This document shows, piece after piece, positions 4,990-19,427 of a stretch of DNA of 64,000 nucleotides (within the stretch, counting starts at the first letter, position 1; the number at the start of each line of letters is the position of its first letter). The notes below the pieces were generated by a model that made no database searches, was not told where the DNA came from, and saw nothing but the letters and a program-made list of their open reading frames with translations. Origin of the DNA: Arcobacter defluvii. GTDB taxonomy: Bacteria > Campylobacterota > Campylobacteria > Campylobacterales > Arcobacteraceae. Made by a program: the position numbers and the translations under genes. The stretch is taken from positions 248,001 to 312,000 of the forward strand of contig NZ_CP053835.1 in assembly GCF_013201725.1 (NCBI RefSeq). The letters run 5' to 3'.

Positions 4990-5018
4990 TTGACAAAGTT
5001 AAATATATTTAATATAAT
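4990..5018 (+). promoter_or_regulatory. Consensus sigma-70 promoter of the tRNA operon
   Basis: TTGACA at 4990-4995 and TATAAT at 5013-5018 are both perfect and separated by 17 bp. The likely start is near 5025, about 30 bases before the first tRNA. A perfect -35 is rare in this window, as expected for a strong stable-RNA promoter. Confidence 0.9.
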
Positions 5019-5056: not shown

Positions 5057-5134
5057 CGGGGCGTAGCGCAGTCTGGTTAGCGCACCTGGTTTGGGACCAG
5101 GGGGCCGGAGGTTCGAATCCTCTCGCCCCGACCA
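5057..5134 (+). tRNA. tRNA-Pro(TGG)
   Basis: The acceptor stem CGGGGCG (5057-5063) pairs with CGCCCCG (5124-5130), followed by A and an encoded CCA. The anticodon arm CCTGG-TTTGGGA-CCAGG places TGG at positions 34-36. The T-loop is GTTCGAATC. First gene of the tRNA operon. Confidence 0.95.
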
Positions 5135-5155
5135 TTTAATTAATTTAAATCTTGT

Positions 5156-5233
5156 GGTAGGTATAGCTCAGTCGGTTAGAGCATCGGGTTGTGGTTCCGA
5201 GGGTCGTGGGTTCGAGCCCCATTACCTACCCCA
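5156..5233 (+). tRNA. tRNA-His(GTG)
   Basis: GTAGGTA (5157-5163) pairs with TACCTAC (5223-5229). The extra G-1 (5156) faces discriminator C73, a histidine identity feature. The anticodon arm TCGGG-TTGTGGT-TCCGA gives GTG. CCA is encoded at 5231-5233. Confidence 0.95.
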
Positions 5234-5246
5234 TTTATTTTTTATT

Positions 5247-5323
<77 letters not shown>

Positions 5324-5369: not shown

Positions 5370-5454
5370 GCGGATGTGGTGAAATTGGTAGACACGCCAG
5401 ACTTAGGATCTGGTGCCTCACGGTGTGGAAGTTCGAGTCTTCTCATCCGCACCA
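5370..5454 (+). tRNA. tRNA-Leu(TAG), integration site of the island
   Basis: An 85-nt class II tRNA with long variable arm. GCGGATG (5370-5376) pairs with CATCCGC (5444-5450). The anticodon arm CCAGA-CTTAGGA-TCTGG gives TAG, and CCA is encoded. Its last 17 bases plus one flanking base form the left copy of the 18-bp att repeat, so the integrated element preserves a complete tRNA. Confidence 0.95.
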
Positions 5455-5455
5455 C
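5438..5455 (+). repeat. attL, 18-bp direct repeat at tRNA-Leu 3' end
   Basis: TCTTCTCATCCGCACCAC is identical to 17868-17885. It covers the T-arm side, acceptor stem and CCA of tRNA-Leu. The match stops abruptly on both sides. Confidence 0.9.
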
Positions 5456-5507
5456 CTTTTAAAAATCCCCCTTTTTTCGGTATCTTCAAAGACTTTTAAA
5501 AATCTTG

Positions 5508-5534
5508 GTGTCATTTGAGTGTCAATCAGTGTCA
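5508..5534 (+). promoter_or_regulatory. Putative integrase arm-type sites, left end
   Basis: Three GTGTCA direct repeats begin at 5508, 5519 and 5529, so they are 11 and 10 bp apart, one helical turn each. They lie between attL and the integrase 3' end. The same motif recurs at the right end. Tyrosine integrases of this type use such arm sites; binding here is inferred. Confidence 0.55.
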
Positions 5535-6632
5535 AAAACTTTCATTAAATATTTTTCCAAAGTTCCTATTTTTATTAGGAATATATTTTGAATAAACTTC
5601 AAGTGTCATTTTAGTTGAAGAATGTCCAGCAATTTTACTAACATAATTTACATCTTCCCCACTTGAAATCATTGTTGAACAAAATGTGTGTCTTGTATTA
5701 TGTATCTTTCTATATGGAATATCTGATTTTTCTAAATCTTTTTTCCAGTAATTTCCTCTAATTTTTGAAATATCCCAAAAATGAGTTCCCTCATTATTTA
5801 TAAATACATAAGAATTTTGTTTTCCAGTTATTTTAAATTGACTTTTTAGAAAAGGTATTAAACTATCAATAATTGGAATAGTTCTAAATGAATCCCATTT
5901 TGGAGAACCAATTACACCTCTTCCAACTTGTGATTTAATTTCAATAGTTTTATTAAAAAAATCTACATTTTTCCATTCTAAACCTATTGCTTCTCCACCT
6001 CTTACTCCTGTTGTAAATAAAAACATATAAAAGTTTTTCATTTGTTGATTTTCACAATTAGAAATTAACTTTTGAATTTGTTCCATAGTAAAAGGTTCAA
6101 TATCTTCAACATCTTTAACTCTATTTCTAGTTGATAATTGACTTGCTAGTCTAATTGGATTTTTTGAAACAATTTCATCTCTCATTGCGTCTTCATACAT
6201 TGTTGAAAGTATTCCTCTAACCCCTTTTATGGTTTTAATAGCATACCCTTGTTCAATCATTTTATTCTGCCATAAAGTTATGTCAGTTCCTTTTATAGTA
6301 TCAATTTTTTTATTCCCAAAAATAGGTTTTAAATGTTTCTCATATTTACTTTTATAATCATTTTGTGTAAATGTTTTTCTGTTTGAACTTTGAAGTTCAA
6401 AAGATTTTTTCATACATTCATCAACTGTTGGCATTATATTTTTAAAGAACTCCCCACTTATAATTTTATAGTGTAATTTGGGTATTATTGATTTTTCTGC
6501 TAATTTTTTATTAGCAGGTGTATTGTCAAGGTTTAAAGGTTTTCTATATCTAATTCCATTATGAGTGAAATCAACCCATAGAGTTTCTTTAAAACCATCT
6601 TTATTTTTTGATTTTTTCACATATAGTTTCAT
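5532..6632 (-). CDS. int: Tyrosine recombinase / site-specific integrase
   Basis: A 366-residue integrase that would catalyse insertion and excision at tRNA-Leu. It has an N-terminal arm-binding domain (about 1-60, IRYRKPLNLDNTPANKKLAE), a SAM-like core-binding domain (about 70-170) and a C-terminal catalytic domain. The catalytic residues seen are Arg in TTGVRGGEAIGLEW, the HNTRHTFCS box (H-x-x-R), His in IAGHSS and the nucleophile Tyr in LEVYSKYIP. The ATG is at 6632. The 3' end overlaps the third GTGTCA repeat beside attL, the usual position for an element integrase. Confidence 0.93.
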   Translation of the reverse strand: MKLYVKKSKNKDGFKETLWVDFTHNGIRYRKPLNLDNTPANKKLAEKSIIPKLHYKIISGEFFKNIMPTVDECMKKSFELQSSNRKTFTQNDYKSKYEKHLKPIFGNKKIDTIKGTDITLWQNKMIEQGYAIKTIKGVRGILSTMYEDAMRDEIVSKNPIRLASQLSTRNRVKDVEDIEPFTMEQIQKLISNCENQQMKNFYMFLFTTGVRGGEAIGLEWKNVDFFNKTIEIKSQVGRGVIGSPKWDSFRTIPIIDSLIPFLKSQFKITGKQNSYVFINNEGTHFWDISKIRGNYWKKDLEKSDIPYRKIHNTRHTFCSTMISSGEDVNYVSKIAGHSSTKMTLEVYSKYIPNKNRNFGKIFNESF

Positions 6633-6717
6633 TGTGTGTTTCCCTTTTTTTGTTTAACCACAAATCAACCATAAATACTTTGTAATTATAATTGAAATTA
6701 GGCTAAATTAGACTTAG

Positions 6718-7050
6718 TTAAGCGGCTATAGAAGAAATTATTTCTTCTATAGTAGTATCAATTTGGTTTTTCATATAATCATTGTTAGAAGTAATTCCCA
6801 TAACCCATTTATCAAGGGATTCTTTGTCAAACATTCTTTTTCTTTCAACTTGGTAATAATGAATATTTACAATGAACTCACCTTTTTTAACCATAAAATC
6901 AATAGAATCTTTTGAATAACCTAAATAGTGAGCAGTTTCAGTTGTTGATAACCATCTTTTCTCAACTCTATTTTCTATTTTTTCATTTAATTGTAAAAGT
7001 AGTTTATAAATATTAGGAATTTGCTCTAATGCTTCTAAATTTATATTCAT
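6718..7050 (-). CDS. Small HTH protein, excisionase/MerR-like
   Basis: A 110-residue protein. The segment RWLSTTETAHYLGYSKDSIDFMVKKGEF (about 33-60), followed by YYQVERKRMFDKESLDKWV, has the layout of HTH_17/excisionase DNA-binding domains: a winged helix recognising 'which column, which row'. It lies between int and the methyltransferase and overlaps the latter by 4 bases (ATGA), so the two are co-translated. A recombination directionality factor is the likely role, inferred from domain and position. Confidence 0.65.
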   Translation of the reverse strand: MNINLEALEQIPNIYKLLLQLNEKIENRVEKRWLSTTETAHYLGYSKDSIDFMVKKGEFIVNIHYYQVERKRMFDKESLDKWVMGITSNNDYMKNQIDTTIEEIISSIAA

Positions 7051-8639
7051 AATATTTCTCTTGTATTGATTACTGAACCAGTCATAAATACTTCATATTT
7101 TGTATCTATTGTTCCACCTTTTTCATTTTTTGAATTTGTTGATTTTCTCCCAAGAGCTTTAACTTTTAAGCCATAATCTAAACAATACTTACCTATAAGA
7201 GGATGAGAATAATTAAAATATGAAATATCTCCTTTTACTAGGGCTAAATCTTTTAATAATTCCTCATGGTTAAAGTTATCTCCATATTTTCCATAGTTTG
7301 CAACACAACCACCTAAAATTTTATTCATTTTAGAAGCAATTTTATTTTTTTCTTTTTCAGTAGATACTTCAAGAAATTGCTTGTTTAATTCAGCTCTTTG
7401 TTTTTCAAATTCTGAAATAGTCAAATGACATTCATTAAAATATGGAGGGTCAAAAGTTGTATGAGTATCTTCTTTTTTACTGTTTTTTTTCAGTATTTCT
7501 TTATAATCTTTATTTTCAATTCTAACATTTACAGAATTGTATAAAAAGTTATATAATTCAACTTTTCCCACAAAATTAAAATATCTATCAAATTTGTTTA
7601 AATCTTTTGGAACGCTAAAAGTTGTTGAACCATCTTCTTTTGTTTTATAATTTCCTCCAAAATTATTGTTTAATAAAAAAAGTAGAATTGAAGAAGTTAA
7701 TGTGCTTCTGTTTTTTCCCTCTTTATTTACTCTGTAATTAAAAATCTTTTCAAGTCTTTTAATGAATAAATTTGTATCTTTATATGTTGCTTCAAACATA
7801 TTAGTTTTTTGAAATAGTTTTTGAATGAAGAAAGAAATATTTTTTAAAATATTTTTATTCTCACTTTTAGATTTAACATGATTATTTAAACAAGCAATAG
7901 CAGGATTTAAATCATTTAAAATAACTTTGATATCATTTTCTTTTATTACACTATATGAAGAATAAAAACTTCCAACCCCTCCCATAAATGGGTCTACAAA
8001 TTTTGTGATAGTTTTTGAAGTAGTAAGTTCTTTTAAATGTAAATTTATAAATGAGTAAAATTTCTTTTTCCCTCCACATAAAGCATATAAAGTATGTAAT
8101 GACATTTTATTGAAACTAAAAAATTTAGAATTCTTTTTAGCATAATCAATAAGGGCATTATTTGATAAGTTATTTATTCTAAAAATTACATTTTTATCAT
8201 TTGTATAAGATAAAAGTGAAAATATATAAAATAGATTAAAGAATAAATCTACTGCTGAATTTCTATGTTCAAATAATATTTCTTTTAACCTTATTTCATT
8301 AATTTTTTTATCATTTATAACTTCTTTTCTAATAATATCATTCTTAGGTTTTAAGATATTTTCTAATTTAGCATTAAGTAAATTGATATATAATCTCAAC
8401 TCTTTTAAGTTTTCAGTTTTTTTCATATCTTCAATAATAGGATATATAAAATCTAATTTTGTATTTGGATTTATTTCATTCAAATTTTTAAATAAGGTAG
8501 ATAATGGTTTTTGAATAGAATCATTATCAATATTAGAAAATGGATTTAGTTCCTTTTCTATATATTCAGTTATTTTTGTTTTTTTATGCTTTGTTTCTGC
8601 ATACACATTAATTGGTTTTTTGTTTTGAATTGTTTTCAC
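7047..8639 (-). CDS. Orphan D12-class (Dam-like) adenine-N6 DNA methyltransferase
   Basis: A 530-residue protein, long for the Dam family (about 270-330). Residues 1-180 are an unrecognised Lys/Asn-rich extension. The remainder has FVDPFMGGVGSFYSSY (SAM-binding motif I, DPFxGxG form), NDLNPAIACLNNH (acidic motif II) and TTFDPPYFNECH (catalytic DPPY). The C-terminus ends with YFNYSHPLIGKYC. No restriction endonuclease gene is adjacent, so it may protect the element or act as a solitary regulator. It starts at GTG 8639 with AAAGGA seven bases upstream. A 10-bp inverted repeat overlaps this ribosome binding site. Confidence 0.8.
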   Translation of the reverse strand: MKTIQNKKPINVYAETKHKKTKITEYIEKELNPFSNIDNDSIQKPLSTLFKNLNEINPNTKLDFIYPIIEDMKKTENLKELRLYINLLNAKLENILKPKNDIIRKEVINDKKINEIRLKEILFEHRNSAVDLFFNLFYIFSLLSYTNDKNVIFRINNLSNNALIDYAKKNSKFFSFNKMSLHTLYALCGGKKKFYSFINLHLKELTTSKTITKFVDPFMGGVGSFYSSYSVIKENDIKVILNDLNPAIACLNNHVKSKSENKNILKNISFFIQKLFQKTNMFEATYKDTNLFIKRLEKIFNYRVNKEGKNRSTLTSSILLFLLNNNFGGNYKTKEDGSTTFSVPKDLNKFDRYFNFVGKVELYNFLYNSVNVRIENKDYKEILKKNSKKEDTHTTFDPPYFNECHLTISEFEKQRAELNKQFLEVSTEKEKNKIASKMNKILGGCVANYGKYGDNFNHEELLKDLALVKGDISYFNYSHPLIGKYCLDYGLKVKALGRKSTNSKNEKGGTIDTKYEVFMTGSVINTREIL

Positions 8640-8674
8640 TTTCAGTCCTTTGTATTTTTGATTTGACTGAAAGT
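8638..8674 (-). promoter_or_regulatory. Inverted repeat over the methyltransferase ribosome binding site
   Basis: ACTTTCAGTC (8638-8647) and GACTGAAAGT (8665-8674) form a perfect 10-bp inverted repeat with a 17-bp spacer. In the methyltransferase mRNA the 3' arm covers the end of the AGGA and reaches the GTG start, so folding would hide the start. As DNA it could be an operator between the divergent genes. Confidence 0.5.
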
Positions 8675-8726
8675 CTAGTTATTGTAAAATCTCACAAGTA
8701 TCAACTAAAAATTAAAATGGAAAACA

Positions 8727-10088
8727 ATGAAAGATTTAAAACCCTTAAAACCGAACTTAGAAAAAGAAATTGATAAAATAAGAAAGAAAAAACATACATC
8801 AATAAATTGGTATGATTTAGAAAGTGAAATTGATAGAATTAAAGATTTTGATACTTTTGAAGAAAAAGAAGTGTTATTGTATGAATTCCAAAAACTATTT
8901 TCTAATCAAAATAAATCAATAATAAATGCCTATGATAAAGATTTAGTTATTTATAAAATATTAGAAACAATAATTTTGAATAACCCTATTCAAGTAAGTG
9001 CTACAGAATTGAAAGAAAAAGAATATTTTATTGATAGTGGTATAAAAAATGCAGTTGATAAATCTTTAAAGGTATTGAATCTTTATGAGATAATAGATAA
9101 AAATAAAATTACTCTTCAACAAAATAGGAAAGAATATACATTAAATTTAAATAAGTGGTATAAAAAATCTAAATATAGAATAAATGATAATGAAGTGTTG
9201 GCTATTTTAGCTCCACTTATAACTTCATATATAAATATTGGTTTTATAAATGAATTTAATATTGAAATCTTTTTTGAAAAAATATCTAATATTATTGAAT
9301 ATACTATTCAACCCTCTGCTGAACACAATAAATATTTTGAATTAGAATATGAAATTACTTTTGCTATTGAAATGAAAGATAAATTATATCTCTTGATAAA
9401 AAATAGAAATACTTATGAAGAAATAGAAATTGCACCTATATCAATTATTTTTAATAATGGTAAAAAATATTTGAGATATAAAAATAATGAAACAAATAAA
9501 TATGAAACAAAAGAGTTAAATGATTTAAAACTTAAATTAGAAGAGGATATAGAAGATACAAATATTTTCAATGCTAATATATCAATGCTAAAAGCAGAAG
9601 ATATAAAAATAAAACAACCACCTAAAAAAGCAGAACCAAAACAAATAAAACTTCTTTTAGAGTGTGATAGTGTTATATATGAATACTTTAATATGCTTCC
9701 TTTATCAAATATGATTATCTATGATGAAGAAAAAAAATTAAAAGAGTTTTCTAAAAAATATAACTGTGATTTTATGCCAAATAAGTTTTATATTGAAGCA
9801 ACAGATTATAAAGAAAAATGTATTTCTGTAATTTTTCATTGTTTAGAAAATGTAAAAATTATAGAACCAACTGAACTTAAAAATGACATTATAGAAAGAG
9901 TAAAAATATTTACTAAAAAAAATAATATTGATATTTGTAAGGAAGATAATACACCACCAACCCAACCTATAAAACCTGATAATAATCAAACTTCAAAAAA
10001 TGAAACACCAATTGAAAATATTGAAATTGATAAAAATGGATTGGTGGAAAAAATAAAAAACTCTAAGGGTGGTAATTTGAATTTATAA
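8727..10088 (+). CDS. WYL-domain-like regulator (tentative)
   Basis: A 453-residue protein divergent from the methyltransferase operon. Residues about 70-145 could form a DNA-binding helical region. The central part (about 205-270) has a WYL-like rhythm: KDKLYLLIKNRNTYEEIEIAP, ISIIFNNGKKYLRYKNNE, then a KELNDLKL block. The segment about 310-395 (LLLECDSVIYEYF ... FYIEATDYKEKCISVIFHCL) resembles the WYL C-terminal extension. A low-complexity tail rich in Pro, Asn and Thr follows. WYL proteins are ligand-responsive repressors common in mobile elements and defence loci. The identification is by pattern only. Confidence 0.45.
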   Translation: MKDLKPLKPNLEKEIDKIRKKKHTSINWYDLESEIDRIKDFDTFEEKEVLLYEFQKLFSNQNKSIINAYDKDLVIYKILETIILNNPIQVSATELKEKEYFIDSGIKNAVDKSLKVLNLYEIIDKNKITLQQNRKEYTLNLNKWYKKSKYRINDNEVLAILAPLITSYINIGFINEFNIEIFFEKISNIIEYTIQPSAEHNKYFELEYEITFAIEMKDKLYLLIKNRNTYEEIEIAPISIIFNNGKKYLRYKNNETNKYETKELNDLKLKLEEDIEDTNIFNANISMLKAEDIKIKQPPKKAEPKQIKLLLECDSVIYEYFNMLPLSNMIIYDEEKKLKEFSKKYNCDFMPNKFYIEATDYKEKCISVIFHCLENVKIIEPTELKNDIIERVKIFTKKNNIDICKEDNTPPTQPIKPDNNQTSKNETPIENIEIDKNGLVEKIKNSKGGNLNL

Positions 10089-10217
10089 GGGGTTTTGAAA
10101 GGGGTTTAACCCATTCACAAGAGAGAGAAAAAACTTTTTAAAGTTTATTTCCTATCTTGAAAAGGGTGATGATTTTTAGTCCAATTTCCCATTTAACAAA
10201 AAGGGAAAATGGTGCTA

Positions 10218-10240
10218 TATAATTTTTGTAAATTTACAAA
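10218..10240 (+). promoter_or_regulatory. -10 box and 16-bp palindrome before the relaxase-like gene
   Basis: TATAAT at 10218-10223 is followed at once by the perfect palindrome TTTGTAAATTTACAAA (10225-10240), which covers the expected transcription start and runs into the AAAGG ribosome binding site (ATG at 10249). A repressor bound here would block both the promoter and the start region. Confidence 0.55.
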
Positions 10241-10248
10241 GGTTATAT

Positions 10249-11268
10249 ATGAGAAGACTAAAAAACTGGACTGTCATAATGAAGAGTATAAGTCAAAAAA
10301 ATAAAGACAATGTAAAGTCTTTTTTGAATTTATATGAATACATTTATGACTTAAAAAATCAACACCCTAACCATAACTTAAAAGAGTTCCACAAGGTTGT
10401 GGGATTTGAGGATAGACACCCTCAAATATCTAAAAACTTTTTAAACCTGCAAATGAAAATTGACATAGAGAAGAATTTTCTAATAAGTGGTAAAAAAGCA
10501 AGTGGAAGAAAATCAAGTTATGGGAAAAGCATTCTTTTATCTTTGCCTTCTTCTATACAATTAGAAGAAAAAGATTATAAAAGAATAAGAGATTTAATAC
10601 TTATAAGATTAGTTAATTTTATAAGTTCTGAATACAAATTAAATTATGATAAATCTCAAAGAGATAGATTTATCAATAATTATATTCTCTCAACTGCTCA
10701 TTTACAAAATAGCAACAATCATATAAATATTTTAGTTCCTAATGTTTTTATAGATTACAAAAATGAAAATAAACTGTTAAGAATTGACTTAGGCAAAAGA
10801 AGATTTTCTTACTTTATAAAACAAAGTTTCAACTATATAATGCTTCAATATTTTAATAATAACTATTTAGATTATGAAATCCAAGCCCATAATAAAATCA
10901 GTAAGAAAACAAATTCACAATATTACTATAAACTAAAACAAGTGGAAGAACAAAAACAAGACTTAACCCATCAAATCTCTAATATGAAGAACTTATTTAA
11001 CTTAACTAATGAAAACTTTACTAAATTGCAAAAAAGAGTAGATATCTACCTAAATAGAATGGATACAGCAATACAAGAGCAGAACAAAGAAAAATTTGAG
11101 AAAAATAAAGAACTTATTGAAAGAAATTTAGAAAAAATAAAAGAAGAACTTCAAAAAGATTATTCAAAAACACCATCTAAACCTGACTTGTTGTCAATAT
11201 TTGACAAGATAAAAATAGAACTTGAAAATAAATCTTATACTAATACAAAATCAGGATTAACAAGGTAA
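10249..11268 (+). CDS. Possible mobilization relaxase-like protein
   Basis: A 339-residue protein. The middle shows SILLSLPSSIQLEEKDYKRI followed after about 50 residues by STAHLQNSNNHINILVPN. A short 'slP ... H ... nHINilv' pattern of this kind occurs in MobA/VirD2-type relaxases, where the paired histidines bind metal. The classic three-His cluster is not complete. The C-terminal third (about 225-310) is a Lys/Glu/Gln-rich coiled coil. It lies upstream of a Rep_3 gene, which suits plasmid mobilization. A replication or DNA-binding role is also possible. Confidence 0.4.
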   Translation: MRRLKNWTVIMKSISQKNKDNVKSFLNLYEYIYDLKNQHPNHNLKEFHKVVGFEDRHPQISKNFLNLQMKIDIEKNFLISGKKASGRKSSYGKSILLSLPSSIQLEEKDYKRIRDLILIRLVNFISSEYKLNYDKSQRDRFINNYILSTAHLQNSNNHINILVPNVFIDYKNENKLLRIDLGKRRFSYFIKQSFNYIMLQYFNNNYLDYEIQAHNKISKKTNSQYYYKLKQVEEQKQDLTHQISNMKNLFNLTNENFTKLQKRVDIYLNRMDTAIQEQNKEKFEKNKELIERNLEKIKEELQKDYSKTPSKPDLLSIFDKIKIELENKSYTNTKSGLTR

Positions 11269-11271
11269 AAA

Positions 11272-11478
11272 ATGGACTCACTTCACACAATATCAAATAG
11301 ACAAAAAAAACAAATTGAAAAATTTGAAGAACATAAACCAAAATTAGATTTAGTAATTAACTGCCTATATAGAAGTGAATTGCTAACAGAGGAAGAAAAA
11401 GAGCATTTAGAAGTTTCATTAAAATATATTATTCATATTATGGATAAATATAAATTATCTGAAGGGTTGGACTTCTAA
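11272..11478 (+). CDS. Small hypothetical protein
   Basis: A 68-residue acidic, helical protein with no recognised domain (SNRQKKQIEKFEEHKPKLDL, then LTEEEKEHLEVSLKYIIHIM). It begins three bases after the relaxase-like stop and is followed after one base by another small frame, so it belongs to the same transcript. Its function is unknown; accessory proteins of this size often accompany relaxases. Confidence 0.6.
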   Translation: MDSLHTISNRQKKQIEKFEEHKPKLDLVINCLYRSELLTEEEKEHLEVSLKYIIHIMDKYKLSEGLDF

Positions 11479-11479
11479 A

Positions 11480-11623
11480 ATGTTTTTACTTTTACAATTC
11501 TTAATGGACACAACAGATATTTTAGAAATATTTTCACAATTTGAAAAAAAGAAAGGTGCAAGTTCTAATTCTATTTCTTTAAAACCTAAACCCCCTAAGG
11601 GATTTTTTGATAAAAGAAAATAA
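11480..11623 (+). CDS. Very small hypothetical protein
   Basis: ATG at 11480 opens a 47-residue frame ending at TAA 11621-11623. The first nine residues are hydrophobic (MFLLLQFLM), followed by an acidic helix and a basic tail rich in Lys and Pro (KPKPPKGFFDKRK). The ATG is one base after the previous stop, consistent with coupling. The Shine-Dalgarno is weak. It may be real, but support is positional only. Confidence 0.4.
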   Translation: MFLLLQFLMDTTDILEIFSQFEKKKGASSNSISLKPKPPKGFFDKRK

Positions 11624-12093
11624 AATTTCTTCTATCTTCAATCATAAATTAGCAGTCATGAAGCAAGAAAAATAAATTTTTTTATTAAAAATATAATGCT
11701 CTAATTTTTTTAATTGCTTTATGTTTAAATAGTTAATATTATTTAGGAAAGTTCTTCTTAATTAATAAAACCATCTCAATGGGTTCTAATGGTTCGCTAA
11801 TTTATTTCTTATAGAAAAAAGCAAAACATTAAAGGAGTAAAATTTTATTTCAAAAATTTATTCATAAAATCTTTATAGCAAGAGCGAATTCATCAAGGCT
11901 ATATATCTTACTGAATTATATGTTTTTAAAAAAATGAAATAAACTCCTATAAAATAGGCTCTGTGTTAGGTTCTATAATTCTTAAAATAGAGTAATTAGG
12001 GCTTTTTTACAATTTATTGTGCTTTCCTTAGTTTTAATTTGATTTATTGTTTTTATTGCTATAAACTGAAAATAAAGAAAGGTTTTATAGTAA
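11624..12093. other. 470-bp non-coding region upstream of rep, candidate replication origin region
   Basis: No convincing gene on either strand. The stretch is very AT-rich. It contains a short dyad CCTATAAAATAGG and three TTTATTG copies at 12013, 12043 and 12052 just before the Rep_3 gene. Plasmids with Rep_3 initiators often carry iterons here, but I do not see long regular iterons. Regulation of rep or an antisense RNA is possible. Confidence 0.35.
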
Positions 12094-13014
12094 ATGGAAG
12101 AAGAATTTGTAATATATAAACCCAAACCTTTAATTTATATCAGCAATTTAACACAAAGAGAAAGGTTAATAGTTAATTTTTTAATAAAATTGGTTAATAC
12201 CCAAAATAAAGAAGAAAACCCTAAATATGTGTTTAGAGTAGGAAACATAAAAAATATTTGTAATATTAGGGATTTTGAAGCAATTAGAGCTATTTTATAT
12301 AATCTATTTGAAACAAATTTAGAAATTGATTTATTAAAAAATAAAAGAAAATTAAAAATAATGAAAAACATATCAATGAAGAAATCAGAAGTGAGCATTA
12401 CTTTTTCAAATGAATTTATGGAATTATTTAAAATAAATTCCTATGCTAATATTGATATAAAAGAACAAACAAAACTAAAATCAAAATATTCAATTATTGT
12501 ATATGAAATGATAAAAGATTATTATAGAACAAATAATTCATTTGTTCAAATTCCTCATATTGAAATTGATACATTTAAAAATCTAATGGGATTTAAAAAT
12601 ATTTCTAATTATGATTTGAAAAAAATTGTATTAGAAAAAATTATTGTAGATATAAATAAAAACACTAATTTTAATTTTACCTATAAATTTTTAAATAAAA
12701 TTGGAAGTAAAAAACCTACTCATATAGAATTGAAATTTTCCAAAGAAAAATCAATTATTCCTAAAATTGAAAATAAAAAATCTGATGCTGAAACTTTGAA
12801 AGAAATTGAAAAAAAAATGGAATGCCTAAGGCTTAAAGATATTGAGAATGAAAAAAAAATGGAATGGTTAAAACTTGAAGATATTAAAATTGCTAAAAGA
12901 AGAGACGCATTAACCAAACAAGAAATATATTGTGAAGAAACCACAAGCAGGTATGAAAGATATATGAATGACTATGAGAAAAGGATTGATGAAAAGAGGG
13001 GTGAGGAAGAGTAA
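12094..13014 (+). CDS. Rep_3-family replication initiation protein
   Basis: A 306-residue protein with the double winged-helix layout of RepE/RepB-type plasmid initiators. WH1 covers about 10-125 (LIYISNLTQRERLIVNFLIKL ... VSITFSNEFMELF). WH2 covers about 125-220 (LKSKYSIIVYEMIKDYY, IDTFKNLMGFKN, LKKIVLEKIIVDINKNTN, PTHIELKF). The C-terminal 80 residues are a charged coiled coil with a KKMEC/WLKLEDI near-duplication. Such proteins bind iterons and load the helicase. An initiator inside an integrated element implies a plasmid ancestry or an excised replicating form. Confidence 0.8.
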   Translation: MEEEFVIYKPKPLIYISNLTQRERLIVNFLIKLVNTQNKEENPKYVFRVGNIKNICNIRDFEAIRAILYNLFETNLEIDLLKNKRKLKIMKNISMKKSEVSITFSNEFMELFKINSYANIDIKEQTKLKSKYSIIVYEMIKDYYRTNNSFVQIPHIEIDTFKNLMGFKNISNYDLKKIVLEKIIVDINKNTNFNFTYKFLNKIGSKKPTHIELKFSKEKSIIPKIENKKSDAETLKEIEKKMECLRLKDIENEKKMEWLKLEDIKIAKRRDALTKQEIYCEETTSRYERYMNDYEKRIDEKRGEEE

Positions 13015-13031
13015 TATTGAAACAATAAAGC

Positions 13032-13061
13032 CTTATAAGTATTTATTTTACTTATAAGTAT
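13032..13061. repeat. Two CTTATAAGTAT repeats, operator-like
   Basis: CTTATAAGTAT occurs at 13032-13042 and 13051-13061, 19 bp apart. Each copy contains the palindrome CTTATAAG. They lie between rep and the cargo genes and could be a Rep or repressor binding pair controlling the operon that starts at 13109. Confidence 0.4.
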
Positions 13062-13108
13062 ATATTAAGTGAATTAAGTTTATTATTTCAAATATAAGGA
13101 GTTAAATT

Positions 13109-13600
13109 ATGACTGAAATAATAAACAAAATATTAGAAAATTCTAAGAGAGCTTATAAAAAAAGTATTTTAATTAATAATGAAGAGTTAGAAGAGTTACT
13201 TTTTTCAATAATTACAGATACAAAAAGAGTTTTGGATGAAGTTACTAGTGAAGAAAAAAACATAAATAATGTATCTTCTCAAAATAGAACAGAAGAAGAA
13301 GAAATTAAAAGAGTAAGAAAAAAAATTCCTTCATGGTTTTCTAAACCAAATCAATATAACCATAAAATTTTAGTGGCTTATATGAAATTATCTAACAAAA
13401 ATAAAAATACAATAACTATAGAAGAATTGGAAAAAGAAGCAGGATTAAAAAATAGTCAAGTTTTTATTTCAAATTTTAATCAAATGAAAATTATATCTTA
13501 TAAAAATCATGGAAAAGTTTTTACTGAAGAAAACGGGATTGTTACTTTGTGGTTTCCAATTGCTGATTATATTGTAGAAGAATATGAGAAAATGAAATAA
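13109..13600 (+). CDS. Hypothetical protein with C-terminal winged-helix-like region
   Basis: A 163-residue protein, not recognised. The N-terminal 90 residues are charged. The C-terminal part (about 72-163) runs IPSWFSKPNQYNHKILVAYMKL, TIEELEKEAGL, FISNFNQMK and GKVFTEENGIVTLWFPI. This alternation of helices and a beta-wing suggests a winged-helix DNA-binding domain. A good ribosome binding site (AAGGAG) precedes ATG 13109. It follows two palindromic repeats and precedes the cargo genes, so it may be their regulator or a partition-type protein. No function is assigned. Confidence 0.55.
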   Translation: MTEIINKILENSKRAYKKSILINNEELEELLFSIITDTKRVLDEVTSEEKNINNVSSQNRTEEEEIKRVRKKIPSWFSKPNQYNHKILVAYMKLSNKNKNTITIEELEKEAGLKNSQVFISNFNQMKIISYKNHGKVFTEENGIVTLWFPIADYIVEEYEKMK

Positions 13601-13643
13601 GGTGGATAATGTGAGAAAGAACTATAATAAAGGGGGAATTTAA

Positions 13644-14099
13644 ATGAGTGGTAATCATCAATATACATCTGACTATGAAAAAGATTTTTTGTTAAATGAG
13701 TTGAAGTTAAAACAAATTAGAAATACTACTATTTTTATTAAAAATGATATTTTTTGTTTATCTCCCTCTTTATCGTTAAATAAAAGTAAATTTTATTGGT
13801 TTGATTTAAGAGAAATTAATATAAGTAAATTTAATGGAATGAAATATTTAAAATTTTTAATTTTAATAAGAGTTGTAGATAAAGGTTTTATATTATTAAA
13901 TTTTGAAGAAATAGAAAAGATAATGCAATCGCACACAAAAGAAGAAAAAAATCTATTGAAAGTATGGGGCTTTAAAATTGAGATAAAAGATAAGTCTGTA
14001 AAAATAATAAATAAAAAAGATAAATCTATTTTGTTATCTTCTTTTTTCAACAAGGAAGAGATTAAAATAAATTTTTTTGAGGGAATAAATAATGATTAA
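13644..14099 (+). CDS. Hypothetical protein, island cargo
   Basis: A 151-residue Lys/Ile-rich protein without recognised domain or signal peptide. It contains short beta-type segments (FYWFDLREINISKFNGMKYLKFLILIRVV) and a basic region near 115-135. AAAGGGGGA precedes the ATG. It overlaps the next gene by 8 bases, so its translation is coupled to the secreted protein that follows, which suggests joint function. Confidence 0.55.
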   Translation: MSGNHQYTSDYEKDFLLNELKLKQIRNTTIFIKNDIFCLSPSLSLNKSKFYWFDLREINISKFNGMKYLKFLILIRVVDKGFILLNFEEIEKIMQSHTKEEKNLLKVWGFKIEIKDKSVKIINKKDKSILLSSFFNKEEIKINFFEGINND

Positions 14100-15465
14100 A
14101 ATACTAACAATTATTTTTATCTTTAATACTCTTTTATTTGCAAATAAAGAAGTCTATAATAATATAATCAAAAATTATGAGCCAAAAAAAATGAGTAATA
14201 TTGAACTATCAGAAGAACAATTAAATCAACTTTGTGGAGAAAAACATTTTTCAACTGAATGTGAGATAATAAGTTTATCTATAGATAATGAAACTACAAA
14301 AAAAAGAATAGTCTATATATTAGAAGAAATAACAAAAAAATATAAACTTGATGAAAAATTAGCAATTAATCTAAATACTAAATTTATGAACTATATTGAA
14401 GAAAATCAAAAAATTGATAATATAGTTTCTTTTTGTAATTCTTCACTTTGTTCTTTGAAATCTATTCAATCAGGTTTGGAATCTTTTGAAAGTGCTTTAA
14501 AATTTGTCTTAAATAATAAAATTATTAAATCTGATAATAAAGAATTATCAAGTTATTTCAGTTTGAATGATATAGACAATCTTTATTTAGATAATTATAA
14601 TTTTATTGTAAATACAAAAAAGGGTGCAGAAATAGAAAAACCTCTTATTTTTAAAAATGATTTTTTACAGATAGAAAAACTTTGGAATCAATATGAACTA
14701 AGTTTAAAAAAATTTTTAGAAAAAACAAGCAAATTTGACTTGGAATGGATACGAGTATTTTATGAAATTAAATATAATTATTCAATTAGACTAAAGGAAT
14801 ATTTTCAAGAGATAAATTCTCAAAATAAGTCAAATGAAATATATGAAAGATATGCCATTTTAGAGTTAGAAAAATATTCTAAAAATAATAAATTTTTTGA
14901 CAATATTGATAATAATGACTTAAACCATAATTTAGAAAAAAAATATAACCTTAGTGAGAATGAAGTTTTATTATTATATTCATCATATAATAAATTTAAC
15001 TGCCATATTTGTGTTCCAAAAATGAGTTGGTTTTATCTAAAAAATGAAAATAATAAATGGAAAATCAAAAAATCTATTATAAATAAAGAGACACAACTTG
15101 GAACATGGGGAAGTTTTGTAGTGCCAAGATTAATTAAGCCTAAAAAAGATTTATTCGTTTTTAAATATGATTTTACTTATGTTAATCAAGGTTTTAGTGA
15201 AGATTTTGTTACACTTGAATTATTTAATAATGGAAAATTTGAAGAAATATTTCATAATGAATTCGGTTTGAATGATGCTGGTGCATATGATACTATTAAG
15301 AATGATTGGGGAAGCAGAATTGATTTTGTAAATAGTAAAAATGAAATACCAAATTTATTAATAGAAAAAATAGGTTTAAAGAATTCAAGAATTTTTTATG
15401 ATAAAAAAATTTATATTTTCAATAAGGGTAAATACAAATTAATAAAAGAAAAAGGGAAGATATAA
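14092..15465 (+). CDS. Exported hypothetical protein, island cargo
   Basis: A 457-residue protein with a clear signal peptide (IKILTIIFIFNTLLFA, cleavage near residue 18). The mature part has cysteines near LNQLCGEKHFSTECEI and FCNSSLCSLKS, and later a FNCHICVPKMSW block with CxxC spacing, so periplasmic disulfides are plausible. The C-terminal third appears beta-rich (KDLFVFKYDFTYVNQG ...). No family is recognised. It is preceded by GAGGGA and coupled to its upstream neighbour; the next gene starts two bases after its stop. Confidence 0.6.
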   Translation: MIKILTIIFIFNTLLFANKEVYNNIIKNYEPKKMSNIELSEEQLNQLCGEKHFSTECEIISLSIDNETTKKRIVYILEEITKKYKLDEKLAINLNTKFMNYIEENQKIDNIVSFCNSSLCSLKSIQSGLESFESALKFVLNNKIIKSDNKELSSYFSLNDIDNLYLDNYNFIVNTKKGAEIEKPLIFKNDFLQIEKLWNQYELSLKKFLEKTSKFDLEWIRVFYEIKYNYSIRLKEYFQEINSQNKSNEIYERYAILELEKYSKNNKFFDNIDNNDLNHNLEKKYNLSENEVLLLYSSYNKFNCHICVPKMSWFYLKNENNKWKIKKSIINKETQLGTWGSFVVPRLIKPKKDLFVFKYDFTYVNQGFSEDFVTLELFNNGKFEEIFHNEFGLNDAGAYDTIKNDWGSRIDFVNSKNEIPNLLIEKIGLKNSRIFYDKKIYIFNKGKYKLIKEKGKI

Positions 15466-15467
15466 TA

Positions 15468-16148
15468 ATGATAGATAAAATGTTTGATTCTGGAATCACT
15501 GGTGGAATAGTTGCTTTAATTGCATTTTTAATAACATTTTTAATATTTAAGATTATAAAAAAAACTCTAAAAGAAAAAAGTTTTTTTATAGTTTTTGGTA
15601 TATTAATGACTATTCTTTGGATAGGTTTAAAGACTTTTCCTATTGATTTAAATTCTGGTGATAATGCAAAACTGATTTCTAATAATATAGAATATAACAT
15701 CATTATTAAAAATGATTATATCGACATTAATGGGTATAAATTGTCTTCTAATGATTTTAAATTAATAAGTGAGTTATTTAAAATAGATATGAATAAGTTA
15801 TCAACATATGATTTTTATGGAATGATGGAATATAATCCAATCACTCCAATTCCAATTATGAAGAGTTCAATTTTAAAAAGTGATAGTCCTCTTTATCATA
15901 GTATTTTTATAAACTTTGAAAAATATTTTCAACCAATTTTAATTGATAATATAAAAATAGAAAGAAATATGTCATCAGAATTTGTAAGAAAATATTTAGG
16001 TGAGCAATACTTCAAACCTGTAGTGAATAAAGATAAATATAGTAATTATAAATATGAGACTGAAACACGCAAAATAATTTTTGGTTTTACAGATAATAAG
16101 TTAATAGATATGGAAATCTTTTTAATAAAAAATGTAATGAATATTTAA
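15468..16148 (+). CDS. Membrane-anchored hypothetical protein, island cargo
   Basis: A 226-residue protein with two N-terminal hydrophobic segments (about 10-28, GGIVALIAFLITFLIFKII, and about 38-56, FIVFGILMTILWIGLKTF). A soluble C-terminal domain of about 160 residues probably faces the periplasm. No family is recognised. It is the last gene of the 13109-16148 unit, closed by a strong terminator. An inner-membrane protein paired with a secreted one could be an immunity or anchoring partner; that is speculation from order alone. Confidence 0.55.
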   Translation: MIDKMFDSGITGGIVALIAFLITFLIFKIIKKTLKEKSFFIVFGILMTILWIGLKTFPIDLNSGDNAKLISNNIEYNIIIKNDYIDINGYKLSSNDFKLISELFKIDMNKLSTYDFYGMMEYNPITPIPIMKSSILKSDSPLYHSIFINFEKYFQPILIDNIKIERNMSSEFVRKYLGEQYFKPVVNKDKYSNYKYETETRKIIFGFTDNKLIDMEIFLIKNVMNI

Positions 16149-16163
16149 AGCAATAATATTAAA

Positions 16164-16191
16164 AAAATAGCCAAATTTAATTGGCTATTTT
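16164..16191 (+). terminator. Intrinsic terminator after the cargo operon
   Basis: AAAATAGCCAA (16164-16174) pairs with TTGGCTATTTT (16181-16191) around a 6-nt loop and runs into a T-rich tract (TTCTTTT). It sits 15 bases after the last cargo stop. Confidence 0.85.
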
Positions 16192-16238
16192 TTCTTTTAC
16201 AAAGATATTTAATCATACATAAATATGAATAAGTGATT

Positions 16239-16385
16239 TTACAGTGATACTATAACCTGATTTTCTTCCACTTGTTTTACATAATCAACTTTTGATAAAA
16301 ACTTTTGGAATTCAGCCCATCTAATGGCTACTAAACTTTCATTTTGTGAGAAACTTTTTAATACTGAACTTTGAAACATTGACAT
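16239..16385 (-). CDS. Small hypothetical ORF, possible gene remnant
   Basis: ATG at 16385 opens a 48-residue frame with a TAA at 16241-16239. The sequence begins MSMFQSSVLKSFSQ and continues with AIRWAEFQKFL and YVKQVEENQ. This resembles the first 40-50 residues typical of type IIG restriction-modification enzymes in Campylobacterota, after which the frame ends. It may be the degraded head of such a gene or an independent small protein. The resemblance is from memory of the pattern, not a search. Confidence 0.35.
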   Translation of the reverse strand: MSMFQSSVLKSFSQNESLVAIRWAEFQKFLSKVDYVKQVEENQVIVSL

Positions 16386-16386
16386 A

Positions 16387-16427
16387 AAAATAAAACCTTT
16401 TAATAATAATTAAATAGGTTTTATTTT
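16387..16427 (-). terminator. Inverted repeat, probable terminator for the leftward gene at 16479
   Basis: AAAATAAAACCT (16387-16398) and AGGTTTTATTTT (16416-16427) are perfectly complementary with a 17-nt loop. Read leftward, the stem ends in ATTTTT. It lies between the 16479-16745 gene and the small ORF at 16239-16385. Confidence 0.5.
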
Positions 16428-16478
16428 ATCTAAAAGTAGCAAAAAGTTATGAGTTTGATTTTCTTTTCTATTGATTAA

Positions 16479-16745
16479 TTATTCAAATATACACCCCATT
16501 TTTTCCAACATACCTTTAATATCAGGTTCAACTAAATAAGTTCTATTTTCTGAAACATTTCTTAAATAAGCCTCACAATAGTCTTCAATAAGACTTTTTA
16601 TATATTTCACATTATGTGATGCTTCTTCTTCTGAACAATAAACACTTGTTTGACTGTTCCAAACCATACCTTTTAAACAATATACAATTGAATTTTCAAT
16701 ATCTGATAACTCTGGTGATACTAAATCATAATTTGTTATACTCAT
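16479..16745 (-). CDS. Small hypothetical protein
   Basis: About 88 residues, not recognised. It is acidic and contains SPELSDIENSIVYCLKGMVWN, EEASHNVKYIKSLIEDYCEAYL and a C-terminal MGCIFE. I choose ATG 16745 because AGGA lies seven bases upstream (16753-16756). The frame continues upstream to 16811, but that extension (MARFFYCYKITIQ...) covers the ribosome binding site and the AT-rich leader and is probably not translated. Probably a small helical regulatory or accessory protein of the island. Confidence 0.5.
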   Translation of the reverse strand: MSITNYDLVSPELSDIENSIVYCLKGMVWNSQTSVYCSEEEASHNVKYIKSLIEDYCEAYLRNVSENRTYLVEPDIKGMLEKMGCIFE

Positions 16746-16852
16746 TTTCATTTCCTTTAATTTTTTTGTTTTTTGTATAGTAATTTTATAGCAATAAAAA
16801 AACCTTGCCAAATTAAAATGATAGGTTTAAAAAGAAATTTATAAATTTATAA

Positions 16853-16877
16853 AAAAGATAGGGAAAGCCTATCTTTT
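16853..16877 (-). terminator. Terminator after the J-domain gene
   Basis: AAAAGATAGG (16853-16862) pairs with CCTATCTTTT (16868-16877) around GAAAG. Read leftward it follows the 16885 stop by 7 bases and ends in a T-run. Confidence 0.8.
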
Positions 16878-16884
16878 AAAATAT

Positions 16885-17349
16885 TTAATATGTTAATTTT
16901 CCTTTTTCTTTTGTCTTTACAGTTTCAAAACCATATTTACTTTTAATGTCTTCCATAGATTTTTCATTTGGGTTTCTTCCTTTCATTTCACCATAAAACC
17001 ATAGCTTTTTTTTTGAAGCCCATTTAAAATTTAGTTCTTTTAGTTTTTCTTTGATTTCTCTTGTGTCACCTGAAACCCATACCCAAGAACCAACAACTTC
17101 AATTAAAATATTTTCATAGTGTAAAATTTGAGAAATGATTTTTTCTATTTCTAAATCAAATTTAAACTCATTTGAAAAGTAAATCCCATTTTCTAAAATA
17201 TTTGTATAAATACTATTTAACATTTTAAAAAGTTCATCACTTCCTCCAACATCAGGGTGTAATTTTTTTGCTAATTGTTTATAAATCTTTTTAGCCTCAT
17301 TAATACCATCTATACCTTTAAATTGTTCTTCTATTTGTGAATGTGTCAT
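16885..17349 (-). CDS. J-domain (DnaJ-like) protein of the island
   Basis: A 154-residue protein. Residues about 12-55 form a J domain (INEAKKIYKQLAKKLHPDVGGSDELFKMLNSIYTNI) with the HPD motif that stimulates DnaK. No Gly/Phe or zinc-finger region follows. The C-terminal 80 residues contain VVGSWVWVSGDTREIKEKLKEL and FKWASKKKLWFYG, a small module I recall from short J-proteins on phages and plasmids. It probably recruits the host DnaK for element replication or partition (inference). ATG 17349 is used, and a terminator follows. Confidence 0.75.
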   Translation of the reverse strand: MTHSQIEEQFKGIDGINEAKKIYKQLAKKLHPDVGGSDELFKMLNSIYTNILENGIYFSNEFKFDLEIEKIISQILHYENILIEVVGSWVWVSGDTREIKEKLKELNFKWASKKKLWFYGEMKGRNPNEKSMEDIKSKYGFETVKTKEKGKLTY

Positions 17350-17753
17350 TTTGTCTTTCCTTTAAAAAAATTACCTTTTTTGAAGATTTTTGAGGGGATT
17401 GTCTTTTATCTTCTTTTTTTAATTTTAGAAAATAAAAACAACTATCAAAAAACTTTTTTAGGTTTTACCTCTCTCGTTAGTTTCATCGGGTTTTGTAGGA
17501 ATGTAAGGAATGAATTTTTATTTATAATAAAATATAAAATAGCAATAGTTTTATTTTTAGTATCATTAAAATAATTTGTTAGAGTGAAATGAGAAAAAAA
17601 CTTGAAACTAACAAGTGAGTAAAATGCAAAAAGAAAAGTTTTCTGTTTGGTTTTATTTTAGGTGTGATAACAAAAATTAAAAAAGTTAGAAGATTTATTT
17701 TGTGAGGTATTTGTAGTTATATTTTTGGTGATTTATATTTTTAATTAATTCTG

Positions 17754-17770
17754 GTGTCATTATGGTGCCA
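17754..17770 (+). promoter_or_regulatory. Putative integrase arm-type sites, right end
   Basis: GTGTCA (17754-17759) and GTGCCA (17765-17770) are direct repeats 11 bp apart, each preceded by G. They match the spacing and sequence of the three repeats beside attL. Confidence 0.45.
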
Positions 17771-17799
17771 TTCTTAACCATTTTTTAAGATTAAGGTGC

Positions 17800-17805
17800 T
17801 ATAAT
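17800..17805 (+). promoter_or_regulatory. Extended -10 box reading out of the island into tRNA genes
   Basis: TGCTATAAT gives an extended -10 (TATAAT at 17800-17805). The expected start is near 17812, about 80 bases before tRNA-Gly. The -35 is weak, as usual here. It would transcribe the tRNA genes cut off from the promoter at 4990. Confidence 0.55.
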
Positions 17806-17867
17806 TTCACCATCATAAAGCGTGTATTTATGGTAATGAGTGGTATTAAGTAGTTAATTTTAGATTT

Positions 17868-17885
17868 TCTTCTCATCCGCACCAC
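17868..17885 (+). repeat. attR, 18-bp direct repeat
   Basis: An exact copy of 5438-5455, the tRNA-Leu 3' end including CCA, without the rest of the tRNA. It marks the right boundary of the integrated element. Confidence 0.9.
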
Positions 17886-17893
17886 TATATGAA

Positions 17894-17970
17894 GCGGGAG
17901 TAGCTCAGTTGGCTAGAGCTTCTGCCTTCCAAGCAGACTGTCGCGAGTTCGAGTCTCGTCTCCCGCTCCA
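17894..17970 (+). tRNA. tRNA-Gly(TCC), copy 1
   Basis: GCGGGAG (17894-17900) pairs with CTCCCGC (17960-17966). The anticodon arm TCTGC-CTTCCAA-GCAGA gives TCC. CCA is encoded. It begins 8 bases after attR and would follow tRNA-Leu directly if the island were absent. Confidence 0.95.
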
Positions 17971-17973
17971 TTT

Positions 17974-18019
17974 AAAAGCCTTATATAAGAAGTAAAGTAA
18001 CTTTTTGTGTAAGGCTTTT
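17974..18019 (+). terminator. Terminator after tRNA-Gly copy 1
   Basis: AAAAGCCTTA (17974-17983) pairs with TAAGGCTTTT (18010-18019) across a 26-nt loop and ends in a T-run. Its layout is closely matched by the terminator after copy 2, which is interrupted by an IS element. Confidence 0.75.
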
Positions 18020-18038
18020 TTTAACCTTATTTTTTAAT

Positions 18039-18115
<77 letters not shown>

Positions 18116-18121
18116 CTTTAA

Positions 18122-18198
18122 GCGGGAGTAGCTCAGTTGGCTAGAGCTTCTGCCTTCCAAGCAGACTGTCGCGAGTTCGAGTCTCGTCTCCCGCTCCA
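18122..18198 (+). tRNA. tRNA-Gly(TCC), copy 2
   Basis: Identical over 77 nt to the tRNA at 17894-17970, with anticodon TCC and encoded CCA. It is 6 bases after tRNA-Arg, so the two are cotranscribed. Confidence 0.95.
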
Positions 18199-18242
18199 TT
18201 TAAGAGGCTTTATATAAGAAGTTATACTTTTTATATCGCCAA

Positions 18243-19340
18243 TTCAAGAGATAAATGCATAAATTCACCAAACTAAGCTGTTAAAACTTTTGCAACTTTA
18301 GCATAAAAAACCTCAGATGGAGTTTTGTAACCAAGAGATTTTCTAGGTCTGTTATTTAACCTGTTTTGTATTTCTCTAATTTCTCTTCTTTTGACTTTAG
18401 TGAAATCTGTTTGTTTTGGTAAATACTGACGTATTAAACCATTTGTATGTTCATTTAATCCTCTTTCCCATGAATGATATGGATTTGCAAAGTAAAACTT
18501 TGTATCTAAAGCTTTTGATACTTCTTCATGATAAGCAAACTCTTTACCATTATCAGAAGTAATTGTATGAGTAATTGCTTTTATTGGATAAAGCATATCA
18601 ATTAAAGCTTGTGTAACCACATCAGCTTTCTTAGAATCAACTTTTTTGATGAGAGTAAACTTTGTTGCTCTATCAACTATTGTAACTAATGCTCCAATAT
18701 GGTTTTTACCAATGACTGTATCAATTTCAAAATCACCAACTCTTTTTTTGTATTCAACAACTTTTGGTCTTTTCTCAATTGATACTCTATTTTTAATAAT
18801 TCCTCTAGAGTTATAGTCATTTCCTCTCTTGTGATACTTTTTGTTTTTATGACGTAGCATTAAATATAACTTTCCACCATGGCATTTATTTTTGTAGATA
18901 TATTGATAAATAGTTTCATGTGATACATAAGAAAGCTTTTGTAATTTCATTACTCCTGATATTTGTTCAGGAGACCAATCTAATTTTAATTTATCTTTGA
19001 TGTAATTCATTACTTTTCTAGTAAGCTTTAAATGCTTTGATTTATATTTGTGTCTATAGAAACTAAACTGTTCAGCAAGTTCTGGTTTATAAATACCTTC
19101 AGAACTATTTCTCTTTATCTCTCTACTAACAGTGGATTGTGAAATACCTAAAGTATTTGCTATTTGAATTTGAGTGTATCCAACTTTAGTGTAAGCAGAT
19201 ATTTGATATCTTACTTTTAGGGTTAACTGTGTGAATTTTCGCATAAATATTTTTCCTGTTTTTGGCGAAATAAGGATAACAAAATATTTGTTAACCCCAC
19301 TTACACCTTTTCTTCAGAAATTATGCATTTATGATTTGAA
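18243..19340 (-). mobile_element. IS30-family insertion sequence
   Basis: Imperfect terminal inverted repeats of 24 bp (18243-18266 and 19317-19340, about 20 of 24 matching, with a shared ATAAATGCATAA core) enclose a complete IS30-type transposase. The length is about 1.1 kb, normal for the family. I could not fix the exact tips or the target duplication, since up to six bases on each side could belong to the element. Confidence 0.8.
18273..19244 (-). CDS. IS30-family transposase
   Basis: A 323-residue transposase that appears intact. The N-terminal HTH (about 20-45, GYTQIQIANTLGISQSTVSREIKR) recognises the ends. WSPEQISGVMKL and SHETIYQYIY follow. The DDE catalytic core is seen as GDFEIDTVIG (first Asp), HTITSDNGKEFA (second Asp) and YHSWERGLNEHTNGLIRQY (Glu). 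The C-terminal NRLNNRPRKSLGYKTPSEVF is typical. ATG is at 19244, close to the right inverted repeat. With all catalytic residues present the element may be active. Confidence 0.95.
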   Translation of the reverse strand: MRKFTQLTLKVRYQISAYTKVGYTQIQIANTLGISQSTVSREIKRNSSEGIYKPELAEQFSFYRHKYKSKHLKLTRKVMNYIKDKLKLDWSPEQISGVMKLQKLSYVSHETIYQYIYKNKCHGGKLYLMLRHKNKKYHKRGNDYNSRGIIKNRVSIEKRPKVVEYKKRVGDFEIDTVIGKNHIGALVTIVDRATKFTLIKKVDSKKADVVTQALIDMLYPIKAITHTITSDNGKEFAYHEEVSKALDTKFYFANPYHSWERGLNEHTNGLIRQYLPKQTDFTKVKRREIREIQNRLNNRPRKSLGYKTPSEVFYAKVAKVLTA

Positions 19341-19427
19341 CTTAGGTATAAAGCCTTTTTTTATTTATATATACCTAATAATTCTTTTACTTTTTTATAA
19401 ATCTATAGTTAATTTTGGATATAAAAA

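Follow-up and report, generated by a model that had tools for sequence, protein, structure and literature searches.

The window analysed, a 64,000-nt stretch of Arcobacter defluvii DNA (NZ_CP053835.1, positions 248,001 to 312,000), contains what we take, with a probability of roughly 93%, to be an integrative element with a plasmid-type initiator that entered the 3′ end of the genome's single tRNA-Leu(UAG) gene through site-specific recombination by a tyrosine integrase. This reading is supported mainly by the two att copies, the integrase that adjoins attL, the still intact tRNA-Leu gene, the exact empty site in relatives, and the sister element in another tRNA gene, and no finding spoke against integration. 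Insertion of this kind is the ordinary lifestyle for such mobile elements; the features that stand slightly above routine are the use of the site as a hotspot, a change of target tRNA within one element family, and a possible outward promoter. The result is an integrative replicon of Aliarcobacter that appears intact and has exact boundaries, together with its attB; for this genus, a limited literature search found no description of such elements.

Boundaries of the element and the empty site

The initial annotation had described an island bounded by clean 18-bp att sites, and this was borne out by repeat and genome searches. An 18-bp direct repeat (TCTTCTCATCCGCACCAC) was found as exact copies on the forward strand at positions 5438–5455 (attL) and 17868–17885 (attR), with a spacing of 12,430 bp, and a search of the whole 3.02-Mb genome located it at these two places only (reversed control, 0). 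Seventeen of the 18 bases form the 3′ end of tRNA-Leu(tag), CCA included, while the remaining base lies outside the gene, and the flanking sequences diverge immediately beyond the repeat. Left of the element, ARAGORN placed tRNA-Pro(tgg), tRNA-His(gtg), and tRNA-Arg(tct) at 5057–5323 on the forward strand (starts at 5057, 5157, and 5247), followed by the intact target gene, tRNA-Leu(tag), at 5370–5454 on the same strand. To the right, tRNA-Gly(tcc) was predicted at 17894–17970, and a distal tRNA-Arg(tct) and tRNA-Gly(tcc), near-identical duplicates of upstream genes, at 18039–18198 (starts at 18039 and 18122; all on the forward strand). These positions confirm the order of seven tRNA genes and the distance of eight bases between the right repeat, which ends at 17885, and the first tRNA-Gly. 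The G+C content of the element is 0.226 vs. 0.287 in its flanks.

The empty site was sought in relatives with a 540-bp query consisting of the joined flanks. The query matched G011 at 97% and G020 at 96%, and an unbroken match at 91–97% was seen in G011, G020, G021, G004, G010, G029, and others. Over the 171 bp that span tRNA-Leu, the spacer (CTATATGAA), and tRNA-Gly from end to end, G021 equals the joined window flanks base for base. When sites were scored by tRNA positions and sequence, with a Leu-to-Gly distance of no more than about 35 bases counted as empty, the site was empty in 20 of the 27 resolvable same-genus genomes and occupied in seven, this genome included; four further same-genus genomes, broken or incomplete at the site, lie outside the 27. 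Comparison with element-free relatives thus gave a precise empty site, and neither a gap without an element nor a missing empty site was encountered. The initial annotation's view of an integrated element that restored the Leu gene is supported by the exact repeats, the integrase by attL, and these empty sites. Its further claim of a precise attB holds in that attB can be defined from the repeats and the relatives' empty sites; the crossover point itself, however, is placed by sequence only within the 18 bp of identity. A chance repeat, a rearrangement, or an assembly artefact would have to produce an exact repeat of a tRNA 3′ end at two places only, an adjacent integrase, and an identical empty site in a relative. 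Nothing was found in favour of any of the three, the relatives' empty sites refute them, and we give this explanation practically no weight.

Judging from its family, the integrase would join attP, which would carry the last 17–18 tRNA bases, to attB within the 18 bp. The element would thereby supply a new 3′ end for tRNA-Leu, and the old 3′ end would stay behind as attR. Genomic islands and integrative elements with tyrosine integrases at tRNA 3′ ends have been reviewed (PMC2704930), and they share with the present element an integrase next to att, direct repeats of 16–20 bp, a restored tRNA 3′ end, an AlpA-like regulator, and a deviating G+C content. The element described here differs in that its target is the fourth of five tRNA genes, so that the downstream gene is parted from its promoter; otherwise there is no difference of principle.

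Gene content, related elements and mobilisation

The integrase gene lies 76 bp from attL (5532–6632, reverse strand) and encodes a 366-aa tyrosine recombinase of the P4 type (PF00589, 1.3e-21; Arm-DNA-bind_2; phrog_1, 1.3e-61). On the same strand follow a 110-aa AlpA-like HTH_17 regulator or excisionase (6718–7050; PF12728, 4.9e-07; phrog_66, 1.9e-06; 75% identity in locus L108) and a 530-aa D12-like adenine methyltransferase (7047–8639) with the motifs FVDPFMGGVGS and DPPY. The latter matched a DNA methyltransferase profile (phrog_1996, 3.8e-05) and no Pfam family above cut-off, and has relatives in loci L077, L108, and L110. Divergent from it is the gene of a WYL-like regulator of 453 aa (8727–10088, forward strand; PADLOC WYL, 6.7e-05, a weak match), whose relatives adjoin Rep_3 in the same three loci. 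The forward strand also carries o10249, a 339-aa ORF with no assigned function (10249–11268; 74% identity in L059 and 70% in L108); the small protein o11272 (11272–11478; 88% in L059 and 48% in L108), which adjoins o10249 in all three loci read; a 306-aa Rep_3-type replication initiator (12094–13014; PF01051, 4.8e-12; PF21205, 3.9e-07); and four ORFs of 163, 151, 457, and 226 aa (13109–16148), without convincing family matches and presumed to be cargo. Near attR, on the reverse strand, a 110-aa ORF (16479–16811), whose counterpart next to the L110 J-domain gene shows 54% identity, precedes a 154-aa J-domain protein (16885–17349), which matched DnaJ below the curated cut-off (PF00226, 9.6e-05) as well as phrog_15863 (6.7e-34).

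A syntenic sister element was found in a genome of another genus (G105, L108:3988-18433). It has the same module order of integrase, AlpA-like protein, methyltransferase, WYL-like protein, o10249, o11272, and Rep_3, with identities of 49% for the integrase, 75% for the AlpA-like protein, 31% for the WYL-like protein, 70% for o10249, 48% for o11272, and 49% for Rep_3. In contrast to the window element, the sister sits at tRNA-Arg(tcg) (UCG), whose 3′ end recurs as a 22-bp repeat at a distance of 14.4 kb, and differs in cargo, with N6/N4 methylases and an HNH endonuclease. The position of this sister indicates that the element family uses different tRNA genes. Loci L077 (G017) and L110 (G107) share the Rep_3, WYL-like, methyltransferase, and J-domain proteins, but they carry a MobA/VirD2 relaxase, L077 also a NikA/MobC protein, and lack o10249. 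In G021, o10249, o11272, and the J-domain gene are accompanied by genes for a primase-like protein and a C5 methylase. When whole genomes of the family were searched, three further relatives of o10249 came to light, one of them weak; no relatives were found in plasmids, phage records, IMG/VR, or GTDB contigs, and a search of plasmids for relatives of Rep likewise found none. Of 104 family genomes, 21 encode relatives of the J-domain protein, frequently in loci of this kind, with 56–85% identity for full-length matches. Within the family, integrative elements that are not otherwise related share this protein, and distant relatives occur in phages and on conjugative plasmids from other bacteria.

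The integrase and the AlpA-like regulator match phage families, and in G016 a true prophage is integrated at this tRNA-Leu, as would be expected of a prophage or phage satellite that retained early genes only. However, none of the element's proteins that were scanned against Pfam and PHROGs gave a convincing match to phage structural, packaging, lysis, or capsid-hijacking functions; the sole such hit was a weak one, a scaffolding profile (0.0013) inside the methyltransferase, and the absence of o10249 relatives from phage records and IMG/VR also argues against a phage. We therefore regard this origin as improbable, and the Rep_3 initiator together with the syntenic sister points to a plasmid-like rather than a phage nature. 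Had the element decayed into a fixed, immobile part of the chromosome, its several ORFs lacking an assigned function would fit; yet the att copies are identical and the reading frames of the integrase, the AlpA-like protein, Rep_3, and the methyltransferase are uninterrupted over their full length, which makes decay unlikely.

Judging from the integrase family, the integrative element would excise with the help of the AlpA-like protein, which may turn the integrase on or serve as an excisionase. Judging from Rep_3, the excised circle would replicate through this initiator, and a conjugative element in the same cell may move it. Integrative and mobilizable elements (reviewed in PMC5704250) resemble the present one in having their own integration module, no recognised T4SS genes, and VirB4 elsewhere in the host; the element studied here differs in its Rep_3 initiator and in having no established relaxase or oriT. 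For the proteins scanned, the family searches returned no convincing conjugation/T4SS or relaxase match, and PF03432 found no match in the element. VirB4 was found in its genome only at 1.27 and 1.84 Mb, so that a conjugative helper is conceivable. These positions fall in two opposite-orientation copies of one region (1.234–1.272 Mb and 1.832–1.870 Mb), each with VirB4, a relaxase, and an integrase at identical scores; from these gene matches, the duplicated region is a predicted conjugative-element-like island.

Could o10249 be a divergent relaxase, making this an integrative and mobilizable element? Its invariant H151-x6-H158-x-N160 resembles relaxase motif III, its best profile alignment among 21 targets, controls included, was to a relaxase group and co-linear, and the related loci L077 and L110, with Rep_3, WYL-like, and methyltransferase genes in common, carry relaxases. 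The hhalign probability, however, was a non-significant 2%; the HMM ranks were 4, 302, and 354 in a set of 1003 sequences that included 1000 shuffles; the Smith-Waterman p-value for the window protein was about 0.1 or more; and no Pfam match was obtained. Predicted structures had a pLDDT of 44 for o10249 and 40 for the WYL-like protein and were unusable for fold comparison. The motif is suggestive, but significance was not reached; we have not adopted o10249 as a relaxase and consider the assignment doubtful. Because no relaxase was established and no iterons were found near rep (no repeat there reached three copies), autonomous replication and mobilisation of the integrative element are presumed only.

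Other occupants of the tRNA-Leu site

On comparison of the occupied genomes, the tRNA-Leu site is a hotspot, taken up by unrelated elements with other integrases and initiators and by one prophage. In G030 the insert measures 8.7 kb, encodes a 601-aa integrase and a replicase, and has an identical 18-bp att pair; in G023 (L062:1189-4267) it is a 4.1-kb element with an integrase and a RepL-type initiator. G013 carries 17.4 kb with two integrase-family ORFs, the prophage of G016 has tail-fibre, holin, and endolysin genes, and G017 and G018 harbor larger insertions. The integrases of these occupants are at most distant kin of the integrase at 5532–6632. Since several unrelated elements share tRNA-Leu and members of one element family differ in the tRNA they target, integrase specificity becomes directly comparable.

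The G023 element, which contains just two ORFs of at least 80 aa, represents a minimal integrative replicon. A conserved stretch of about 1.15 kb (L063:867-2017 and L065:696-1847) lies between tRNA-Leu and an extra Gly-Arg-Gly set in G017 and G018; it contains no ORF of at least 80 aa, and the G017 copy matched nothing in Rfam at the gathering score. A truncated tRNA-Leu and a second Gly-Arg-Gly set lie tens of kb downstream in both genomes.

The tRNA transcription unit and a candidate outward promoter

The tRNA genes are preceded, upstream of tRNA-Pro, by a promoter that matches the consensus at 12 of 12 positions (TTGACA-17-TATAAT; 4990–5018, forward strand) and is kept in 14 relatives. Behind the first tRNA-Gly lies a terminator (17974–18020, forward strand), a strong hairpin with a T run (-23.7 kcal/mol, z -6.9), that is conserved in relatives and whose arms covary, for example with GCCTTATATAAG facing TATATAAGGC in G020 and GCCTTGTCTAAG facing TTAGGCAAGGC in G024. 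Relatives possess five, six, or seven tRNA genes, the variable members being the distal Arg and Gly. The conserved promoter before Pro, the conserved, covarying terminator, and the variability of the distal pair together suggest that the unit is probably one of five genes, Pro-His-Arg-Leu-Gly, with the distal Arg-Gly beyond the terminator. The initial annotation had the element splitting a seven-gene operon: the cut between Leu and Gly stands, but the unit probably ends after the first Gly, and the insertion therefore severs one gene only.

tRNA-Leu(tag) is the sole copy found in its genome (a single match with up to 3 mismatches allowed), whereas the 55-base 3′ part of the severed tRNA-Gly has four identical genome copies, i.e., three besides its own. 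The insertion therefore spares a unique gene and endangers only a redundant one: Pro-His-Arg-Leu would stay under the old promoter, and one redundant tRNA-Gly would end up downstream of the element's right end. The fate of tRNA genes downstream of a mid-operon insertion becomes testable in this system.

Sequence scoring revealed an extended -10 box (TGCTATAAT; 17797–17805, forward strand) that faces tRNA-Gly and could drive the severed gene. The sequence TGNTATAAT occurs only once in the 12.4-kb element, both strands considered, 62 bp inside attR, and the score of the box, which was picked out post hoc, is unmatched by any interior window of the element; no -35 element was found for it. That it is a dedicated outward promoter that takes over transcription of the severed tRNA-Gly is a tentative proposal. 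If true, an element inserted mid-operon would mend its target gene and, in addition, restore expression of the next gene downstream. The best right-end -10 scores of the G030, G023, G013, G017, and G018 insertions were not significant, falling within each element's own interior range (fractions 0.18–0.49), and a general rule that occupants of the tRNA-Leu site carry an outward promoter is therefore unsupported.

Downstream of the tRNA genes, window positions 18240–19345 are occupied by an IS30-type insertion sequence with a transposase at 18273–19244 and inverted repeats at 18243–18266 and 19317–19340. It seems to divide the terminator hairpin of the distal tRNA-Gly, of which the 3′ arm, with the T run, is located around 19347–19366.
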